Source: Thalassobacillus devorans (GTDB lineage Bacteria; Bacillota; Bacilli; Bacillales; Halobacillaceae). From it: a stretch of 64,000 nucleotides of DNA. Shown piece after piece: positions 30,161-37,815 of this stretch (the stretch's first letter is position 1; each line of letters begins with the position of its first letter). Under the pieces are notes generated by a model. That model searched no databases, was not told the origin of the DNA, and was given only the letters and a program-made list of their open reading frames with translations. The position numbers were made by a program, and so were the translations under genes. The DNA is taken from positions 620,001 through 684,000 of the forward strand of contig NZ_FXEH01000006.1 in NCBI RefSeq assembly GCF_900176565.1, read 5' to 3'.

Positions 30161-31183
30161 TCATTGCTCCAAATATCTTCTGTCTTTCAAAAACAACTTC
30201 CAGAATAGATAGAAAGCCGGAACTAAGATGGCCATTCCAATAATGGTTGCAATCAACAGGGCATAAAACATCGAAGGATTGGTGAACGCTTCCTCGATGG
30301 TCAGGTGCGGATAGACCATGTACGGCAGGTGTGAAGAACCGTACGCATAGATGGCAAAACCATACTGTAAAACTACAAACACGACGGCATAACGGAATAA
30401 TCCCCGCTGTCCGTCCCTGTTTTTCAAAAACAGGGCGGCATAGCCAAATAGAAACAACAAGAGGGACATGCCGAATCCATACAAATGGTTTTCCACATTA
30501 GTCAGGAACCACGATGCTTCCGGTTCTAATGTGAATAGGGTTAAAACAGCAACAACAATCGTTACCGGTCCCGCTACAATTGCGTGTTTCCGGTACAATT
30601 GAGCAGCTGATGGATCTTTAGAAACGGAGGCATAATCCGCTAAAAATAAGGCGGATAAGAAAAATTGTGTGCAAATGCCAAACAGGATATGGGCGTAGGT
30701 GGTGAAACTTGTCAGCAGTTTTCCGTACAGCAGCTCATGGTGACCGTTTTCCATCGTAATAAATCCTCCAAGCGTAACAGGTAAGATACTCACCAATAAT
30801 GCCGGGATCAGTATGCCCGTAATTCCTGATATCACCTGCAATAGTCTGCCATACCGTTTCACCGAATGAGAAAAGACCATGAAAGTGGTCCGGATCGTCA
30901 ACAGAACGAGCCCAAGACCGATAGGCAGAAGGAACAAAACCCCAAGCATGGAAGCGGCAAACGGGAAAAAGCTGTATAAGGCTACCACAAATAACACGAG
31001 AAAGACATTGGTCACTTCCCAGGTAGGAGACAGGAAGCGGTTGGCAATCAGCGAGGCACCGGTATTATTTTTTTTACCATAAATCATCCCCCAGAAACCT
31101 GCCCCAAAATCAAGCGAACCGAGCATAGAGTAAATGTATAAAAAGCTCCAGAGAATCGTAATTGCGATGATGGATGCTTCCAT
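30161..31183 (-). CDS. cydB: Cytochrome bd-type quinol oxidase subunit II
   Basis: A 340-residue subunit II of the bd oxidase family with eight to nine membrane helices; SMLGSLDFGAGFWGM near residue 20 is the family's first-helix signature. It partners CydA encoded 3 bp upstream, whose last codons contain its ribosome site. The complex oxidises menaquinol and reduces oxygen. Length and sequence suit the YthB/CIO branch. Confidence 0.85.
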   Translation of the reverse strand: MEASIIAITILWSFLYIYSMLGSLDFGAGFWGMIYGKKNNTGASLIANRFLSPTWEVTNVFLVLFVVALYSFFPFAASMLGVLFLLPIGLGLVLLTIRTTFMVFSHSVKRYGRLLQVISGITGILIPALLVSILPVTLGGFITMENGHHELLYGKLLTSFTTYAHILFGICTQFFLSALFLADYASVSKDPSAAQLYRKHAIVAGPVTIVVAVLTLFTLEPEASWFLTNVENHLYGFGMSLLLFLFGYAALFLKNRDGQRGLFRYAVVFVVLQYGFAIYAYGSSHLPYMVYPHLTIEEAFTNPSMFYALLIATIIGMAILVPAFYLFWKLFLKDRRYLEQ

Positions 31184-31186
31184 GGT

Positions 31187-32512
31187 TTATCCCTCCAGTT
31201 GCAAATCTTTCATGACCGGGTTTCGCTTGAAGTAGTAACGCATGACGAAGCTGGTGATGAACAGTAATGCGATATACAGCCCGGCGAATAAAAAGAATAA
31301 CAGCCCGACATAATCAGAATCTGTCGCAGCTTCCGTCGTTCTCATCACATCGGTGATGGTCCATGGCTGGCGCCCGATACAGCTGAAGCACCAGCCGGCC
31401 TCAATGGCAATGATGGCAAGCGGTCCACCTGCTGTCAGTCCGGCAAACATCCACGGTTTGAACTCTTTTTTTAATACAAACTTCCATATCACCAGGAAAG
31501 CGGAATAGAGAAGCAATAACGTACCGATACCGACCATCACGTTAAACAGGGTGTGGACGAATAAAGGCGGCCATTCATCCTTCGGGAATTCATTCAACCC
31601 TAATACTTCTGTGTCAAAGCGGTCTCCAGCCAGGAAGCTTAGCGCACCGGGAATTTCAATCGCAAATTTCACCGACTCGCTCTCTTCATCGGTAAACCCG
31701 CCAATTGCAAGCGGGGCATAGGATTGCGTTTCGAATAATCCTTCCGCAGCCGCAAGTTTCCTTGGCATGTATTCGTGGAGCATCTGGGCTGTCTCATGAC
31801 CATTGGCAGCAGTTGCCAAAGACATAAGCAGACCTAACACGAGGGAGATTTTCAACCCCTTCATATGATAGCTGCGCTCTTCTTTTGTTATGTTTCTTTT
31901 TAGTAGTTTAAAGGCGGCAACCGACGCCATTACAAAAGCAGCGGTCATGTAAGCCGATACGGTCACGTGAAGGGCTGTGGCGAAAAAGCTCGGATTGAAA
32001 AAAGCATCCAATGGATCAACATCGACTACTTCCCCATTAACGATCCGGAACCCGTCCGGTGTGTTCATCCAGGCGTGGGCATCGGTGATCAGTATCGCCG
32101 AGCCGACCGCTCCGATAGCTACCAGGATGATGCTGCCAAGGCGCATGGCCGGTGATAAACGATCAGCAGCATAGAGATAGATCGACATAAAGACCGCTTC
32201 AATTAAAAATGCAAAAATTTCAATCAGGAACGGCAGGGCGATGATCTGTCCGACCATTTCCATGAAACCAGGCCATAACAACGATAATAGAACGCCGACA
32301 ATCGTTCCGGAAGCGATTGAAACAGCAATTAATATGGCGAACCCTTTCGTGATTCTGCGCGCCATGATGGCGTAATGGCGATCTTTGGTTATGATGTGCA
32401 TGAATTCACTTAAGATAATCATTAATGGCAGGCCGACACCTAGTGTGGCATAGATAATATGAAAACCGAGTGAGCTGCCGAACAGCACACGGGCGTACAT
32501 GACTGGATCCAA
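31187..32512 (-). CDS. cydA: Cytochrome bd-type quinol oxidase subunit I, YthA/CIO-like, with altered b595 motif
   Basis: A 441-residue subunit I with short Q-loop. The high-spin heme His is in SLGFHIIYATLGVG, the b558 ligands are His in LHVTVSAY and Met in NVMVGIG. The usual GWxxxExGRQPW reads GWCFSCIGRQPW, so the Glu that ligates heme b595 in E. coli is Cys378 here. I start at TTG 32512 (LDPVMYARVLFG) behind GAGGTGA; the longer frame to 32590 lacks a ribosome site and the family starts here. Confidence 0.87.
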   Translation of the reverse strand: MDPVMYARVLFGSSLGFHIIYATLGVGLPLMIILSEFMHIITKDRHYAIMARRITKGFAILIAVSIASGTIVGVLLSLLWPGFMEMVGQIIALPFLIEIFAFLIEAVFMSIYLYAADRLSPAMRLGSIILVAIGAVGSAILITDAHAWMNTPDGFRIVNGEVVDVDPLDAFFNPSFFATALHVTVSAYMTAAFVMASVAAFKLLKRNITKEERSYHMKGLKISLVLGLLMSLATAANGHETAQMLHEYMPRKLAAAEGLFETQSYAPLAIGGFTDEESESVKFAIEIPGALSFLAGDRFDTEVLGLNEFPKDEWPPLFVHTLFNVMVGIGTLLLLYSAFLVIWKFVLKKEFKPWMFAGLTAGGPLAIIAIEAGWCFSCIGRQPWTITDVMRTTEAATDSDYVGLLFFLFAGLYIALLFITSFVMRYYFKRNPVMKDLQLEG

Positions 32513-32675
32513 TCTACTCACCTCAGGAAGGAATAATCTGCTAGTTAGTAAGCCCTGTTCGACTATTTTTATTCCAACGGGATACTGCATTTATAAAACG
32601 TGTGATGTTTACGCCCTTTTTATAGTGGGAAAGTGGTTTATATAACCCAATTCCAACAGAAAGGATGAGCACAAC

Positions 32676-32976: not shown

Positions 32977-33525
32977 ATGAAACATGCGCTGGTGATTGGC
33001 GGTACGGGAATGTTAGCGGAAACGACACTGTGGCTCGCGGATCAAGGTTATCATGTCTCCGTAGTGGTGCGGAATAAACAGAAGATGGATAAGCTGATAG
33101 AGCGGTCCACTCGTAGCGATAAATTGATTCCGGTCTTAGTAGATTATAAAAATACAGAAGGATTGATACATAGATTGAGGGAAGATTTTGAGCGGCATGG
33201 CACGCCTCAACTGGTAGTAGCATGGATCCATTCGGATGCAGGGAAGGCCAGGGAGGTCATCCTGCATGAAGTGGCTAAAGCTACTGTTCCCTTCAACTTA
33301 TACATAATCCTTGGGAGCTCACACAACCGTGATGTCTTTCGGCAAGAGATTAATGTACCGGATCATGGCACGTTGCATATCGTGCAATTGGGCTATGTGG
33401 TGGAAGGGAATCGTTCAAAGTGGCTGGTGCATGACGAGATAGCACATGGTGTGATTGATGCGATAAGGAACGAAAAAATGGAACATGTTGTCGGTGTACT
33501 GGAACCGTGGGAACACCGGCCATGA
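32977..33525 (+). CDS. Short SDR-like NAD(P)-binding protein
   Basis: A 182-residue Rossmann protein starting MKHALVIGGTGMLAE with the glycine motif GGTGMLA. It is shorter than classical short-chain dehydrogenases and I do not see the YxxxK catalytic pair in its usual place, so it may be atypical or bind a nucleotide without SDR catalysis. ATG at 32977 behind GGGAGG. Confidence 0.7.
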   Translation: MKHALVIGGTGMLAETTLWLADQGYHVSVVVRNKQKMDKLIERSTRSDKLIPVLVDYKNTEGLIHRLREDFERHGTPQLVVAWIHSDAGKAREVILHEVAKATVPFNLYIILGSSHNRDVFRQEINVPDHGTLHIVQLGYVVEGNRSKWLVHDEIAHGVIDAIRNEKMEHVVGVLEPWEHRP

Positions 33526-33578
33526 TGGTTGGTTAATGAAGCGAAGCAAAAACTGTTATAGAATTAAGAACTTATATT

Positions 33579-33606
33579 AAGCCTGGATTTCATGTGAATC
33601 CAGGCT
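33579..33606 (+). terminator. Terminator after SDR-like gene
   Basis: AAGCCTGGATT/AATCCAGGCTT, 7-nt loop, T-rich tail. Confidence 0.85.
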
Positions 33607-33704
33607 TTTCCTATGTAAAAAAAAGAATTTCCTCTACTAGCCCGGTGTTAAAGTTTGACAACTTTGTTACAGTAGAAACATTTTTAAAAAATAATACCAG
33701 TAAG

Positions 33705-33720
33705 TGTGATTTAGTTCACT
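33705..33720 (+). promoter_or_regulatory. FNR/CRP-type box before heme-copper oxidase operon
   Basis: TGTGATTTAGTTCACT matches TGTGA-N6-TCACA at 9 of 10 positions. It lies 58-73 bp before the first gene of the oxidase operon and 45 bp after a TTGACA (33655-33660). Anaerobic control by Fnr is the simplest reading; not proven. Confidence 0.45.
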
Positions 33721-33777
33721 TAGTTAATAACCGTTCTCAATTATCATGGAGTTAACAAATAATAAGGGGGATTCGAA

Positions 33778-33924
33778 ATGGCGGAGTCAAACGTAAAGAA
33801 GACCGAAGAAGTGGTGGAAGAGCATTCGTCAATGAAGGGGACTATTTTTTCGGTAGCTGTGGTGGGGGGAGTCATTTTTCTAACGTATCTTCTGATTTAC
33901 GGATTGTATATGGCGAGAATATAG
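33778..33924 (+). CDS. Single-helix oxidase subunit IIa-like peptide
   Basis: A 48-residue protein with a charged N-terminus (AESNVKKTEEVVEEH) and one membrane helix. Its size and position directly before subunits II and I match the subunit IIa of ba3-type oxidases. Ribosome site AAGGGGGA. Confidence 0.75.
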   Translation: MAESNVKKTEEVVEEHSSMKGTIFSVAVVGGVIFLTYLLIYGLYMARI

Positions 33925-33936
33925 GAGGGGATGAAC

Positions 33937-34398
33937 ATGCATAAAGCGGAAAAAATTTGGCTGACATTGAGTTTTGGAATGATTATCGGATTCATGTTAA
34001 TCACAGGCTATCAGGCGTTCGCGAAAGATATGGGACCACCAAGCTACGGGGAACGGATCGATCCGCAAAAGGTCGATGAAACAGCTCCATTCGATAACCC
34101 TGGTGTAAAACAGATTGGTGAAAATGAATATGAAGTGGTTATGACGCTTCAGATTTTCAGCTTTACACCAAACGAAATTGAAGTACCTGCAGGATCCACG
34201 GTCCATTTCACCATGACTTCAAAAGATGTCACGCACGGGTTCCAGGTAGCGGATACGAATATCAACGCAATGGTCATGCCCGGCTACATTTCAAAAATCA
34301 CACAAACGTTCGATGAGCCTGGGGAGTACCTGGTCCTTTGTAACGAGTATTGCGGATCGGGCCATCAGCTGATGGGTACGACGATTACAGTAAAATAA
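33937..34398 (+). CDS. Heme-copper oxidase subunit II with CuA site (ba3/CuANOR type)
   Basis: A 153-residue subunit II: one N-terminal membrane helix (about 8-28) and an extracellular cupredoxin. All CuA ligands are present: His100 in VTHGF, then Cys135, Glu137, Cys139, His143 and Met146 in CNEYCGSGHQLM. It receives electrons from cytochrome c and passes them to subunit I. The short, single-helix form is typical of the B family of heme-copper enzymes. ATG 33937 chosen for its 8-nt distance from AGGAGG. Confidence 0.9.
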   Translation: MHKAEKIWLTLSFGMIIGFMLITGYQAFAKDMGPPSYGERIDPQKVDETAPFDNPGVKQIGENEYEVVMTLQIFSFTPNEIEVPAGSTVHFTMTSKDVTHGFQVADTNINAMVMPGYISKITQTFDEPGEYLVLCNEYCGSGHQLMGTTITVK

Positions 34399-34411
34399 AG
34401 GGGGGAGTAAC

Positions 34412-36091
34412 ATGGAAGCGATAAAAAAAGAGTATTGGAAAGATAAAGCGAATAAAGCGCTCGGAATCAGTCCGGAAGATGCCAGAATCACGAAATCATA
34501 TTTAATTGTTGCCTTCGTCGCCATTTTAGTTGGCGGTCTTCTCGGACTTCTCCAAGGCATGAACAGGGCTGGCATCCTCGAATTGCCGGTATGGCTGAAC
34601 TATTATAAAGTACTGACCGCCCACGGACTCTTACTGGTGGTTGTGTTATCGGCCTTCTTCACGATCGGTTACTTTTACGCGGGGCTCTCCCATTCCTTAG
34701 GCGGGCTGCTACCGAAAGTAAGGAAAATGGCCTGGATCGGCTTCTGGATGAAAATCTTCGGCTTCGTGCTTGCCGTCATCCCGATTTTACAGGGCGACGC
34801 CTCTGTCATGTATACCTTCTATCCACCGATGGCCGCTGCTCCGATGTTCTACATCGGTCTCGTCTTCATCGTATTGGGTGTCTGGATGCTTGCCTTCGGT
34901 GCCTTCATCAATGTGGCAAATTGGAGAAAAAATCATAAGGGACAGCACATCCCGATCATCTCCTTTTTCGCAACCGGTGTTTTTGTCCTATTGTTCTTCG
35001 GCAGTCTGCCGGTCGCTATTGAAGTATTCTACATCATTCCATGGGCGCTTGGATGGATTGAGACCATCAATGTTATGGTTTCCCGTACACTGTTCTGGGC
35101 ATTTGGCCATACGCTCGTTAACATCTGGTATATGACCGCCATTTCTGCCTGGTATGTTTTCGTTCCTAAAATCATTGACGGAAGACGCTGGAGCGATTTG
35201 TTGACAAGGATCGTTGTCATCGCGCTCGTCATCATGAATATTACTGGCGGCTTCCACCATCAGATCATTGACCCGGGTATCTCGGAATCTGTCAAATACA
35301 TGCACGTGTTTATGAGTCTTGCCATTGGGTTCCCGTCCTTGATGACTGCTTATGCGATGTTCGCTGTGTTTGAAAAGACAGCTCGTAAAAAAGGCGGCAG
35401 AGGTCTTGTCGGCTGGTACAAAAAACTGCCTTGGGGAGACGTCCGGTTCCTTGCTCCGTTCATTGCGATGGCTGCATTCATTCCAGCCGGTGCCGGCGGA
35501 ATTGTGCAAAGCACGAACCAGTTGAACCAGGTTGCCCATAATACGATGTGGGTGGTCGGTCACTTCCACTTGACGCTTGGTATGACAGTTGTTATGACGT
35601 TCTTCGGTGTCAGCTACTGGCTCGTCCCATATGTCTCCGGAAGGGTTTTGACGAAAGAAATCAATAAACTGGGTGTTATTCAAACGATCGTCTGGACAAT
35701 CGGTATGGTGCTCATGTCTGGGGCTATGCACTGGGTCGGCTTGTTGGGTTCCCCGCGCCGTACCTCTTACTCGACTTACTTTGATAATGCAACGGCACTA
35801 AGCTGGGATCCTTACCTGTTCTTCCTGGCGATCGGCGGAACCTTACTGATGATCGGTGTACTGCTCCAAGTGTACGCTGTCTTCCATATGATGTTCCTGG
35901 CACCAAAAGGGGAAACTGAGTTTCCGGTGGCAGATGTAGAAGAAGATGCAACACCGACACCAATGTGGACCGAGCGATGGGGTCTCTGGATCGTGCTGAT
36001 GCTTGGGCTGGTAAGCATGGCGTATGTCATTCCGTTAGTCGACTTCATTGTTAATGCGCCTCCAGGTTCGCCTCCATTCAAAACCTGGTAA
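34412..36091 (+). CDS. Heme-copper oxidase superfamily subunit I (B family), possibly a nitric oxide reductase
   Basis: A 559-residue protein with about 13 membrane helices. Metal ligands fall at His71 and His386 (low-spin heme), His384 (high-spin heme) and His233, His282, His283 (CuB), nearly the same numbering as Thermus ba3. The motif after His233, however, is HTLVN, so residue 237 is Asn where oxygen reductases have the cross-linked Tyr (HPxVY). Loss of this Tyr is characteristic of nitric oxide reductases, including the CuA-NOR group of Bacillus. Annotation as b(o/a)3 oxidase is the conventional alternative. Confidence 0.88.
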   Translation: MEAIKKEYWKDKANKALGISPEDARITKSYLIVAFVAILVGGLLGLLQGMNRAGILELPVWLNYYKVLTAHGLLLVVVLSAFFTIGYFYAGLSHSLGGLLPKVRKMAWIGFWMKIFGFVLAVIPILQGDASVMYTFYPPMAAAPMFYIGLVFIVLGVWMLAFGAFINVANWRKNHKGQHIPIISFFATGVFVLLFFGSLPVAIEVFYIIPWALGWIETINVMVSRTLFWAFGHTLVNIWYMTAISAWYVFVPKIIDGRRWSDLLTRIVVIALVIMNITGGFHHQIIDPGISESVKYMHVFMSLAIGFPSLMTAYAMFAVFEKTARKKGGRGLVGWYKKLPWGDVRFLAPFIAMAAFIPAGAGGIVQSTNQLNQVAHNTMWVVGHFHLTLGMTVVMTFFGVSYWLVPYVSGRVLTKEINKLGVIQTIVWTIGMVLMSGAMHWVGLLGSPRRTSYSTYFDNATALSWDPYLFFLAIGGTLLMIGVLLQVYAVFHMMFLAPKGETEFPVADVEEDATPTPMWTERWGLWIVLMLGLVSMAYVIPLVDFIVNAPPGSPPFKTW

Positions 36092-36102
36092 ATGACAAAA
36101 GA

Positions 36103-36131
36103 AGAGAGCCCGCTCCTGGCAGCAGCTCTCT
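36103..36131 (+). terminator. Terminator after subunit I
   Basis: AGAGAGC/GCTCTCT around a 15-nt loop, followed by TTCTTTTAAT; it may be leaky, since functionally linked genes follow. Confidence 0.65.
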
Positions 36132-36163
36132 TTCTTTTAATCGATAACTAGGATGTGATCCTA

Positions 36164-36790
36164 ATGGTCAACAAAAAACTACTAGCTTATCTACTGGTCG
36201 CTGTCTTTGGTATCGTCCTGTTCTACTTCGGAACTGATGGCTTTACTGCTTACACATCGGAAGCGGCTCGGGTCAACCAGCTGAAAGAAGAGAAACCCTT
36301 ATTTCCTGAGGTAACGTTAGAGGACCACGCCGAACGGGTGTATCCTTTTTCCGAGTTTGAAGGCAAGTATGTATTCATTACCTTTTTTTATACGATGTGC
36401 GGGACTGTCTGTCCGGAGCTGGAGAAGAATATGAAGCAAGTGTATGAGATGCTGCCGGAAGACGTGGTGGAAGAAGATATCCAGTTTTTAAGCATCAGCT
36501 TTGACCCGGAGCGTGATACACCTGAAGTACTGGACACGTACCGGGAATGGCTTGAGAGTGACGGGGAGACGTGGCGGATGGCTCGGATTCCGGATCAGCA
36601 GGAACTGGATGAACTGCTCGACCGTTTCGGCGTGATCGTCATTCCCGACGAATATGGCAACTTTGCCCACAATTCGGCTTTTTATCTCGTTGATCCGGAA
36701 GGCCGGCTGGTGGAAGTGATGGATTATCAGGAGACGAGAGAAGCGGCAGTAACCGTGATGGATAGGATGGAAGGGGGCGGAGAAAAATGA
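36164..36790 (+). CDS. SCO1/SenC-family copper chaperone
   Basis: A 208-residue membrane-anchored thioredoxin-fold protein. The copper site is CGTVC with a later His in FAHNSAFYLVD. SCO proteins deliver copper to, or reduce, the CuA site of subunit II, so its place right after the oxidase genes is apt. GTGATC just before the ATG at 36164 acts as the ribosome site. It overlaps the next gene by 4 bp. Confidence 0.9.
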   Translation: MVNKKLLAYLLVAVFGIVLFYFGTDGFTAYTSEAARVNQLKEEKPLFPEVTLEDHAERVYPFSEFEGKYVFITFFYTMCGTVCPELEKNMKQVYEMLPEDVVEEDIQFLSISFDPERDTPEVLDTYREWLESDGETWRMARIPDQQELDELLDRFGVIVIPDEYGNFAHNSAFYLVDPEGRLVEVMDYQETREAAVTVMDRMEGGGEK

Positions 36791-37344
36791 AGGGAATCTA
36801 TTATGTGTTATTGCTGTACTTTTTTCTCATGCTCCCTCCCGTTGCCAATCTGATGGAGTCCGTAATGATCATCCATATGCATATGCAGATGACACTGTTT
36901 GTCATCATCGGCTTTTTGCTCGCACCTGCACTGCAAAAAAGGTTCCCGCGCTTTTTTGAAGAATGGAACCCGAATGGCATTCCCGGCATCCTGCTGTTTG
37001 TGATCGTCATCTTCTATTGGACGCTGCCCCGGTCGATGGACGAAGCGCTCAACCTTTGGTATATTGAGCTGTTCAAGTTCATTTCCCTGCCGTTCTTAGC
37101 TGGTGTGCCGCTTTGGGACAGTTGGAAGAAAATCACTGCCAGTCTTAAAAACGGTCTGATTAGTTTATTTACCTTATTATTCATTTTGATGGGCTGGCTG
37201 TACATCTGGTCACCGAACCAGCTGTGCAATAATTATCTGATGATCGACCAGATCACCCTCGGATGGGGATTTTTGCTGACCGCTGTCTGTATGATCATTT
37301 ACCTGGCGTACAGTTATATTACCGATTTTGCCAAAACAGTATAG
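36787..37344 (+). CDS. Six-helix membrane protein linked to the oxidase cluster
   Basis: A 185-residue integral membrane protein with about six helices and a His/Met-rich stretch IIHMHMQMTLF near residue 30 that could bind copper or heme. I do not recognise the family with confidence; a CtaG-like assembly factor is a reasonable guess. Translationally coupled (ATGA) to the SCO gene. Confidence 0.72.
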   Translation: MKGIYYVLLLYFFLMLPPVANLMESVMIIHMHMQMTLFVIIGFLLAPALQKRFPRFFEEWNPNGIPGILLFVIVIFYWTLPRSMDEALNLWYIELFKFISLPFLAGVPLWDSWKKITASLKNGLISLFTLLFILMGWLYIWSPNQLCNNYLMIDQITLGWGFLLTAVCMIIYLAYSYITDFAKTV

Positions 37345-37393
37345 CCTATCATCCGGCCAATTTCCATGGATGTGGCTTCCGCGTATAAAAAAG

Positions 37394-37428
37394 CAGTCCA
37401 GAAAGCAATAAGATGGGCTGTTTTTTTT
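37394..37428 (+). terminator. Terminator closing the oxidase/SCO region
   Basis: CAGTCC/GGGCTG with flanking A-run and eight T. Confidence 0.75.
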
Positions 37429-37527
37429 ATGGATAGGAATGACAATCGGTGTGGATATATATGGTAAGATAAAGGGGAAGTTCTTCCTTCCAGTATTAAC
37501 GAAATTTTTAAAAGTTGGTGTTTGGTT

Positions 37528-37815
37528 ATGACGAAGTGTGATTGTTGCTCTAACCCTTTTAAGTGGGGAGAGATTTTAAAGAAAAACTTTATTTATGGTC
37601 CGATTACATGTCGAAATTGTAACTGCGTACATAAAATTGATGTTCCTTCGAGGTTTCTCACTACCCTGTTCAGTGTGGTTCCCTTCCTTTTATTCGGAAT
37701 GATTTTATCTCCTTTTCATAACATCTTTTTCACCATTGTAGTGGCGTTGTTGATATTTGTATCAGGTATGCTTGTCACCCCTTTTGTGGTTAATTATAAG
37801 TTGGTAAGCAAGTAG
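37528..37815 (+). CDS. Zinc-ribbon membrane protein (TIGR04104 type)
   Basis: A 95-residue protein with an N-terminal zinc ribbon (CDCCSNPFKWGE and CRNCNCVHK) and two membrane helices (about 45-63 and 68-88). This layout fits the TIGR04104 family of small putative zinc-finger proteins. Role unknown. ATG at 37528; ribosome site weak. Confidence 0.75.
   Translation: MTKCDCCSNPFKWGEILKKNFIYGPITCRNCNCVHKIDVPSRFLTTLFSVVPFLLFGMILSPFHNIFFTIVVALLIFVSGMLVTPFVVNYKLVSK

Follow-up and report, generated by a model that had tools for sequence, protein, structure and literature searches.

Gene cluster

We found a complete five-gene cluster, cbaC-cbaB-cbaA-senC-cbaD, on the plus strand at positions 33778-37344 of the window, i.e., the whole 64 kb stretch of Thalassobacillus devorans DNA that was analysed. 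The order of the genes is that of bNOR, a CuA-containing NO reductase. The gene for subunit I, cbaA (34412..36091, plus strand), is a single uninterrupted frame of 559 amino acids, and its translation, alignments and trees mark it as a B-family heme-copper subunit I with Asn at position 237. It is 399/568 identical (about 70%) to BAZO_06399 of Bacillus azotoformans. A frameshift or pseudogene is ruled out by the one clean frame and by strong conservation.

The original prediction had also claimed a subunit II with a complete CuA site and a SCO protein nearby, and both are present. The former is encoded by cbaB (33931..34398, plus strand), whose 155-amino-acid product matches Pfam COX2 and is 121/153 identical to BAZO_06394. 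Its CuA loop, CNEYCGSGHQLM, is whole (C137-NEY-C141-GSG-H145-QL-M148) and H102 is found as well; we take these two Cys, two His and one Met to be the CuA ligands. The latter is encoded by senC (36155..36790, plus strand), a SCO1/SenC copper-delivery protein of 211 amino acids (Pfam SCO1-SenC, E 6.8e-22; 131/211 identical to BAZO_06404).

The outermost genes, cbaC and cbaD, were absent from that prediction and complete the match to the published cluster. The cbaC gene (33778..33924, plus strand) encodes a small subunit of 48 amino acids with a single helix, which is 25/46 identical to B. azotoformans CbaC1. The local alignment score is 116, compared with a mean of 24 (sd 4.8) for shuffled sequences, and none of 1000 shuffles scored as high. 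Thus, the window has both the small CbaC peptide and the CuA subunit II with the characteristic N-terminus that are expected of bNOR. The cbaD gene (36787..37344, plus strand) encodes a membrane protein of 185 amino acids, judging by hydropathy, that is 112/190 identical to BAZO_06409. Five of its segments lie above the hydropathy cut-off, and six transmembrane helices have been published for the homologue. A Pfam search with CbaD gave no match.

A gene pair for a cytochrome bd-type oxidase (Pfam Cyt_bd_oxida_I and Cyt_bd_oxida_II) lies upstream on the opposite strand (window positions 30161-32590, minus strand).

Reference enzyme of B. azotoformans

A CuA NO reductase purified from B. azotoformans was assigned to cbaC1-cbaB1-cbaA1-senC1-cbaD1, and Asn is stated to take the place of the cross-linking Tyr in this enzyme (PMC3475470). 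As described there, the N-terminus of the small subunit equals that of CbaB1, and that of the other chain is nearly that of CbaC1. The purification used strain NCCB 10003, which is close to the sequenced LMG 9581T (PMC3475470). Given that the N-terminus published for the purified large subunit matched CbaC and not CbaA (PMC3475470), the link from activity to genes rests on subunit II and CbaC. For the enzyme of B. azotoformans, NO reductase activity has been published.

The reference genome (G540) was found by searching 397 genomes of the order with the published N-terminal peptides, which matched in 57. The best match is on contig 42 at base 104893, the published first base of cbaC1, and cbaA1, cbaA2 and nirK likewise agree in this genome with their coordinates in print. 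One nosZ is on contig 145 here versus 147 in print. We infer that G540 is the published B. azotoformans assembly.

Subunit I lacks the cross-linked tyrosine

The original prediction stated that subunit I has six metal-ligating histidines in a numbering like that of Thermus ba3, that Asn237 replaces the cross-linked Tyr and that Thr replaces the Pro of HPxVY. The translation and an alignment with Thermus ba3 bear this out. The histidines are at positions 71, 233, 282, 283, 384 and 386, and the helix carries the motif H233-T-L-V-N237. The two proteins are in exact register at the positions checked from 225 to 450, and Thermus H72 corresponds to H71 of the window. Pro234 and Tyr237 of Thermus ba3 are Thr and Asn in CbaA, and all six histidines are kept. 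CbaA therefore has the fold and ligands of a ba3-type subunit I, but not the cross-linked Tyr at position 237 that belongs to a B-family (ba3/bo3) oxygen reductase. The six heme and CuB histidines combined with Asn for this Tyr are what is expected of bNOR.

Among solved structures, chains of Thermus ba3 are closest to CbaA in sequence (E 4.7e-92). We also modelled CbaA with AlphaFold2 (mean pLDDT 79.5, built with 28 sequences), and the best fold match of the model is 1ehk (Z 39.0, 520 residues, rmsd 2.9 Å). Oxidases of other families and a cNOR come next at Z 31-32, so function cannot be read from the fold alone. Model confidence is only 58 and 52 in the blocks 221-230 and 281-290, so that the active-site loops are moderately confident. 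CbaA did not pass any of the curated NCBIfam cut-offs.

Survey of Asn-type and Tyr-type loci

We scanned named genome contigs for relatives of CbaA and fetched 53 loci. Asn237 is present in 52 of these, and the exception with Tyr is L060 (51% identity). Of the 398 genomes of the class that we scanned, 170 had a match at E <= 1e-20, and the best 30 loci were fetched. Half of these 30 have Asn, namely the window's own locus and 14 others with at least 54% identity, and the other 15 have Tyr, all at 52% identity or less. The window shows 99% identity to T. devorans CECT 7046. Because Asn is kept in 52 of the 53 named-contig relatives and in 14 further loci, Asn237 of CbaA is, judging by this conservation, neither a sequencing slip nor chance.

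An alignment of 87 rows contains 66 with Asn237, 20 with Tyr and one type II enzyme that also has Asn. The 66 Asn and 20 Tyr rows coincide with the two sides of a fork in a quick tree, which was made from the 87 rows after two identical rows were dropped. In this tree, the window is among Thalassobacillus sequences and inside the Asn clade together with BAZO_06399. The Tyr oxidases are apart from this clade, and include two of B. azotoformans and the one of the window genome itself (L004), a second B-family gene with Tyr at 237. The 66-row fork has an SH-aLRT of 80, and the 64-row fork without L074 and L075 has 100. A careful tree of 51 of the 87 rows, from which the long-branched type II row was left out, has a 37-row clade with Asn throughout that includes the window and BAZO_06399 (support 100/100).

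CbaA thus groups with the characterised B. azotoformans enzyme in both trees. The original prediction had proposed such a tree, in which clustering with proven oxygen reductases sharing the motif would have spoken against it. That outcome was not seen: among the sequences compared, those with HT[x]VN group with the characterised NO reductase, and they are not known oxygen reductases.

The His71 column is gapped in 13 of the 66 Asn rows of the 87-row alignment. Since pairwise alignments show His71 in each Asn-type locus, we take this gap for an alignment artefact.

Gene neighbourhoods were scored for 68 Asn-type loci, which correspond to 66 distinct upstream regions because L039 and L067 are one contig present in two collections, as are L042 and L066, and for 19 Tyr-type loci. 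Homologues of senC and cbaD are downstream of cbaA in 61/68 Asn-type versus 0/19 Tyr-type loci. The seven Asn-type loci without adjacent senC and cbaD are L044, where the contig ends, and L069-L072, L074 and L075, where nothing was recognised within 1.5 kb. A cbaC-like peptide exceeds a loose threshold in all loci of both types (68/68 and 19/19), so the presence of cbaC does not discriminate between them.

Active-site helix and possible proton route

By the criterion used, fifteen positions differ between the groups, including 234, 237, 238, 240, 276, 279 and 302. Loss of Tyr237 is accompanied by loss of Tyr244 and gain of Tyr240. Position 240 is Tyr in 64/66 Asn-type rows and Leu in 20/20 Tyr-type rows. 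Tyr244 is present in all 20 oxidase rows versus none of the 66 Asn rows, all of which have Ser245. Beside the CuB histidines, the Asn clade has Asn276 and Gly279, and the oxidases have Ser and Val. Tyr248, Ser309 and Thr312 are invariant in both groups, and position 261 among the Asn rows is Ser in 35/66 and Asn in 31/66. We take Tyr244, Tyr248, Ser261, Ser309 and Thr312 to be the residues of the ba3 K-path. Given that Tyr244 is absent from the Asn rows and that Tyr248, Ser309 and Thr312 are kept, the route from Tyr244 to Tyr237 is gone and the lower part remains.

CuANOR was reported to be electrogenic, and an equivalent of the K-path has been suggested (PMC5826923). Loss of Tyr237 might be offset by a proton route rebuilt within its helix, with Tyr240 as a possible relay or donor of protons to the NO-reducing site from the cytoplasmic side. 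This idea is tentative, and we lean against it. If true, it would explain why this NO reductase, unlike cNOR, can be electrogenic.

The two Asn-type rows that have Met instead of Tyr240, L074 and L075 (genomes G233 and G339), are also the two deepest. They could form a functional subgroup.

FNR-type box and predicted promoter

An exact FNR-type box, TGTGATTTAGTTCACT (33705..33720, plus strand), occurs 57 bases before the start of cbaC. It conforms to TGTGAN6TCACT, and the 64 kb window has no other exact TGTGAN6TCAC[AT]. With mismatches allowed, FNR-like and TTGA palindromes are no commoner in the window than expected by chance, so we tested conservation across loci. Boxes were scored as TGTGAN6TCAC[AT] with at most one mismatch at 100-330 bases upstream of cbaB. 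Such a box is found in 61/68 Asn-type loci, 48 of them exact (59 and 46 of the 66 distinct upstream regions), and was not seen in the other seven. Six of the 19 Tyr-type loci also have one (L060, L077, L086, L089, L090 and L108), which is exact in three. In upstream regions shuffled by two-base blocks the frequency is about 1%, although this control is crude and the loci, where related, are not independent of one another. The "possible FNR box" of the original prediction is thus an exact box that is kept across most Asn-type loci.

A -10-like hexamer, TATCAT (33742..33747, plus strand), follows the box after 21 nt. Exactly this distance is found in 59 of the 61 box-bearing Asn-type loci (background 3.3% per position) and in three of the six box-bearing Tyr-type loci (background 1.8% per position). 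In class II FNR promoters, the box is centred near -41.5. The spacing of box and hexamer appears to fit class II geometry, and would put the predicted transcription start near 33754. A promoter scan of 33300-37700 gave 8 sites versus 6.6 expected, too small an excess to be informative, and terminator-like sites in this region number 9 versus 3.7 expected.

The window genome encodes a Crp/Fnr-family protein that ends in CENCPIVLC (L121 12524-13267), and that did not pass any curated cut-off. Its cysteine pattern presumably resembles that of B. subtilis Fnr.

Denitrification genes and other oxidases

The window genome (G000) has seven matches to PF00115: three genes with a GHPEVY motif, a Tyr-type B-family gene, the window gene, a qNOR and a protein of 124 amino acids. 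We take the GHPEVY motif to mark A-family oxidases. The Tyr-type gene means that the genome keeps a separate ba3 oxidase. The 124-amino-acid protein (L007 1411-1785, G000) matches the COX1 family profile, but only over the profile's C-terminal part, and a similar partial match occurs in G540 (L113).

The qNOR is identical at 572/782 aligned residues to the protein that B. azotoformans encodes at the position published for qnorB2. No NCBIfam model matched it at E 0.001, so that its name rests on PF00115 and on this identity. Around its gene (L121 4744-13432, G000 C4, outside the window) are two genes for regulators of the Crp/Fnr type, a radical-SAM gene (TIGR04053) and three FNR-type sites without mismatch.

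NirK of the window genome is 250/358 identical to that of B. azotoformans, and the two have profile scores of 197.6 and 203.9, respectively, both under the curated cut-off. NosZ was not found in the window genome with one profile (TIGR04246, E 1e-50), and the same search finds three in G540. After nirK comes a NosD-like gene (272 bits versus a cut-off of 300; L118 2074-6726, G000 C1, outside the window), together with genes that by eye look like nosL, nosY and nosF, although NosZ was not found. Genes resembling narGHJI are present, and the sole narG match over the cut-off (L120 6005-9274, G000 C1, outside the window) encodes a protein of 1089 amino acids versus 1231. One region lacks about 140 residues without a shift of the frame, which is either a matter of the assembly or a real deletion. 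With such a NarG, nitrate may not be the source of NO.

We also counted denitrification genes in the 57 genomes picked for the cluster, 42 of which, G540 excepted, were not checked for Asn. A NirK match under E 1e-50 was found in 20, NosZ in 16 and NarG over its cut-off in 26. The NirS profile (PF02239) matched in 34 of the 57, including the window genome, only in short pieces and with at most E 1.6e-12, none of which we counted as NirS. Such short matches are typical of beta-propeller proteins. The counts of NirK, NosZ and NarG suggest that many carriers lack a detected NO-making step, which agrees with genomes reported to have only a NO reductase (PMC11388526).

Interpretation

The cluster at 33778-37344 very probably encodes bNOR (also called CuANOR or qCuANOR type I), a CuA-containing NO reductase. 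This conclusion follows from the histidines combined with Asn237, the order of the five genes, the identities of their products, the all-Asn clade and the linkage to senC and cbaD, and also from the fact that the genome has its own Tyr-type ba3 oxidase, NirK and a qNOR. The original prediction of a probable CuA NO reductase of the B. azotoformans type is supported by the tree, the gene order, the N-terminus of subunit II and CbaC.

In the mechanism that we propose, electrons from membrane cytochrome c551 and/or menaquinol would enter at CuA in CbaB. They would then pass through the low-spin heme b (H71/H386) to heme b3 (H384) and CuB (H233, H282, H283) of CbaA, where two NO would be reduced to N2O and water. 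A site without a Tyr cross-linked to His233 would have no extra donor of an electron and proton for splitting O2. Protons probably come from the cytoplasm via the remnant of the K-path (Tyr248, Ser309 and Thr312), which would make the reaction electrogenic. SenC presumably delivers copper, and a Fnr-type regulator is predicted to switch on expression without oxygen. The enzyme would act alongside qNOR and after NirK, in a bacterium that seems to stop at N2O.

An ordinary ba3 oxygen reductase is ruled out by the missing Tyr237 and the different clade. An oxygen reductase without the canonical Tyr237 could instead use Tyr240 of the same helix in its site. Residues 233 and 240 are seven apart and would thus be on the same face of the helix, and the almost perfect association of Tyr240 with Asn-type rows also fits. 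However, CbaA of B. azotoformans, which has been assigned to a purified NO reductase, has this pair of Asn237 and Tyr240 too, two Asn-type rows manage with Met240, and the K-path Tyr244 of the oxidases is lacking in 66/66. Moreover, the genome keeps separate oxidases, i.e., the three presumed A-family genes and the Tyr-type B-family gene. We therefore regard oxygen reduction by way of Tyr240 as very unlikely. Still less credible, with hardly any probability, is the second Asn-type enzyme, type II or sNOR (BAZO_04705, Geobacillus type), which likewise has Asn at the Tyr position, CuA and SenC (PMC3475470). Its subunit I has 493 amino acids in B. azotoformans versus 559 in the window, its genes are in another order, with a so-called cbaC2 that codes for 194 amino acids, and two N-terminal helices have been published for its subunit II (PMC3475470). 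In the quick tree, it forms a very long branch by itself, separate from the clade of the window. Length, gene order and distance thus rule out this identity.

A more serious alternative concerns the role of the enzyme, which might reduce both NO and O2, or might mainly scavenge NO in low-oxygen cells outside of denitrification. Among the 57 cluster-picked genomes, 37 have no detected NirK, 41 no NosZ and 31 no NarG, and the NirS profile gave only short partial matches among those listed, as this alternative would lead one to expect. On the other hand, the window genome has NirK and qNOR, and a respiratory enzyme would be expected to be induced anaerobically, as the conserved box predicts. We know of no O2 activity in the Asn-type clade. 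A dual or scavenging role is unlikely on balance, but deserves some weight. Regardless, bNOR remains the preferred identity of the cluster.

Standard tools label genes of this kind cytochrome c oxidase, which hides NO reduction and N2O release (PMC11388526). We suggest Thr234/Asn237/Tyr240 in subunit I together with adjoining senC-cbaD as a marker in bacilli, with an FNR-type box before cbaC in most cases. Thalassobacillus is added as a likely producer of N2O, in which NosZ was not detected with one profile.

Comparison with known systems

The family is already known as qCuANOR type I, CuANOR or bNOR, and Asn is recorded as its active-site residue (PMC3475470, PMC8756737). In one tabulation, CuANor is listed with this Asn and one proton channel (PMC8756737 Table A4). 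The name bNOR is used for an enzyme class (PMC12569097), and bNOR was reported in 123/433 Bacillota genomes carrying NO reductase and/or NosZ (PMC11388526).

The qNOR of the window genome (L006) shares with the cluster the reduction of NO in denitrifying bacilli, but is a single large subunit of another heme-copper lineage, with only 93 aligned residues. The type II enzymes of B. azotoformans and Geobacillus resemble the window in their Asn, their CuA subunit II and a nearby SenC, but have a shorter subunit I, another gene order and a very distant sequence. The b(o/a)3 oxidases of bacilli and Thermus ba3 share the fold, all six histidines, Tyr248, Ser309 and Thr312. Unlike in these oxidases, Tyr237, Pro234 and Tyr244 are replaced in the window, Leu, Ser and Val give way to Tyr240, Asn276 and Gly279, and senC and cbaD adjoin cbaA.

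The closest resemblance is to the bNOR of Bacillus (Calidifontibacillus, Schinkia) azotoformans (BAZO_06394-06409). All five genes and their order are common to both, as are Asn for Tyr, the CuA loop and SenC, and the N-termini of subunit II are nearly identical. At about 70% identity, the two CbaA proteins differ by Leu or Ala in HT[L/A]VN. The B. azotoformans genome also has a type II (sNOR) gene and NosZ, neither of which was found in the window genome. Both clusters have an FNR-type box that is followed 21 nt later by a -10-like hexamer, with one mismatch in the box of B. azotoformans. By its sequence, the window's cluster is an intact additional member of a family described in many bacilli, and is ordinary within that family.
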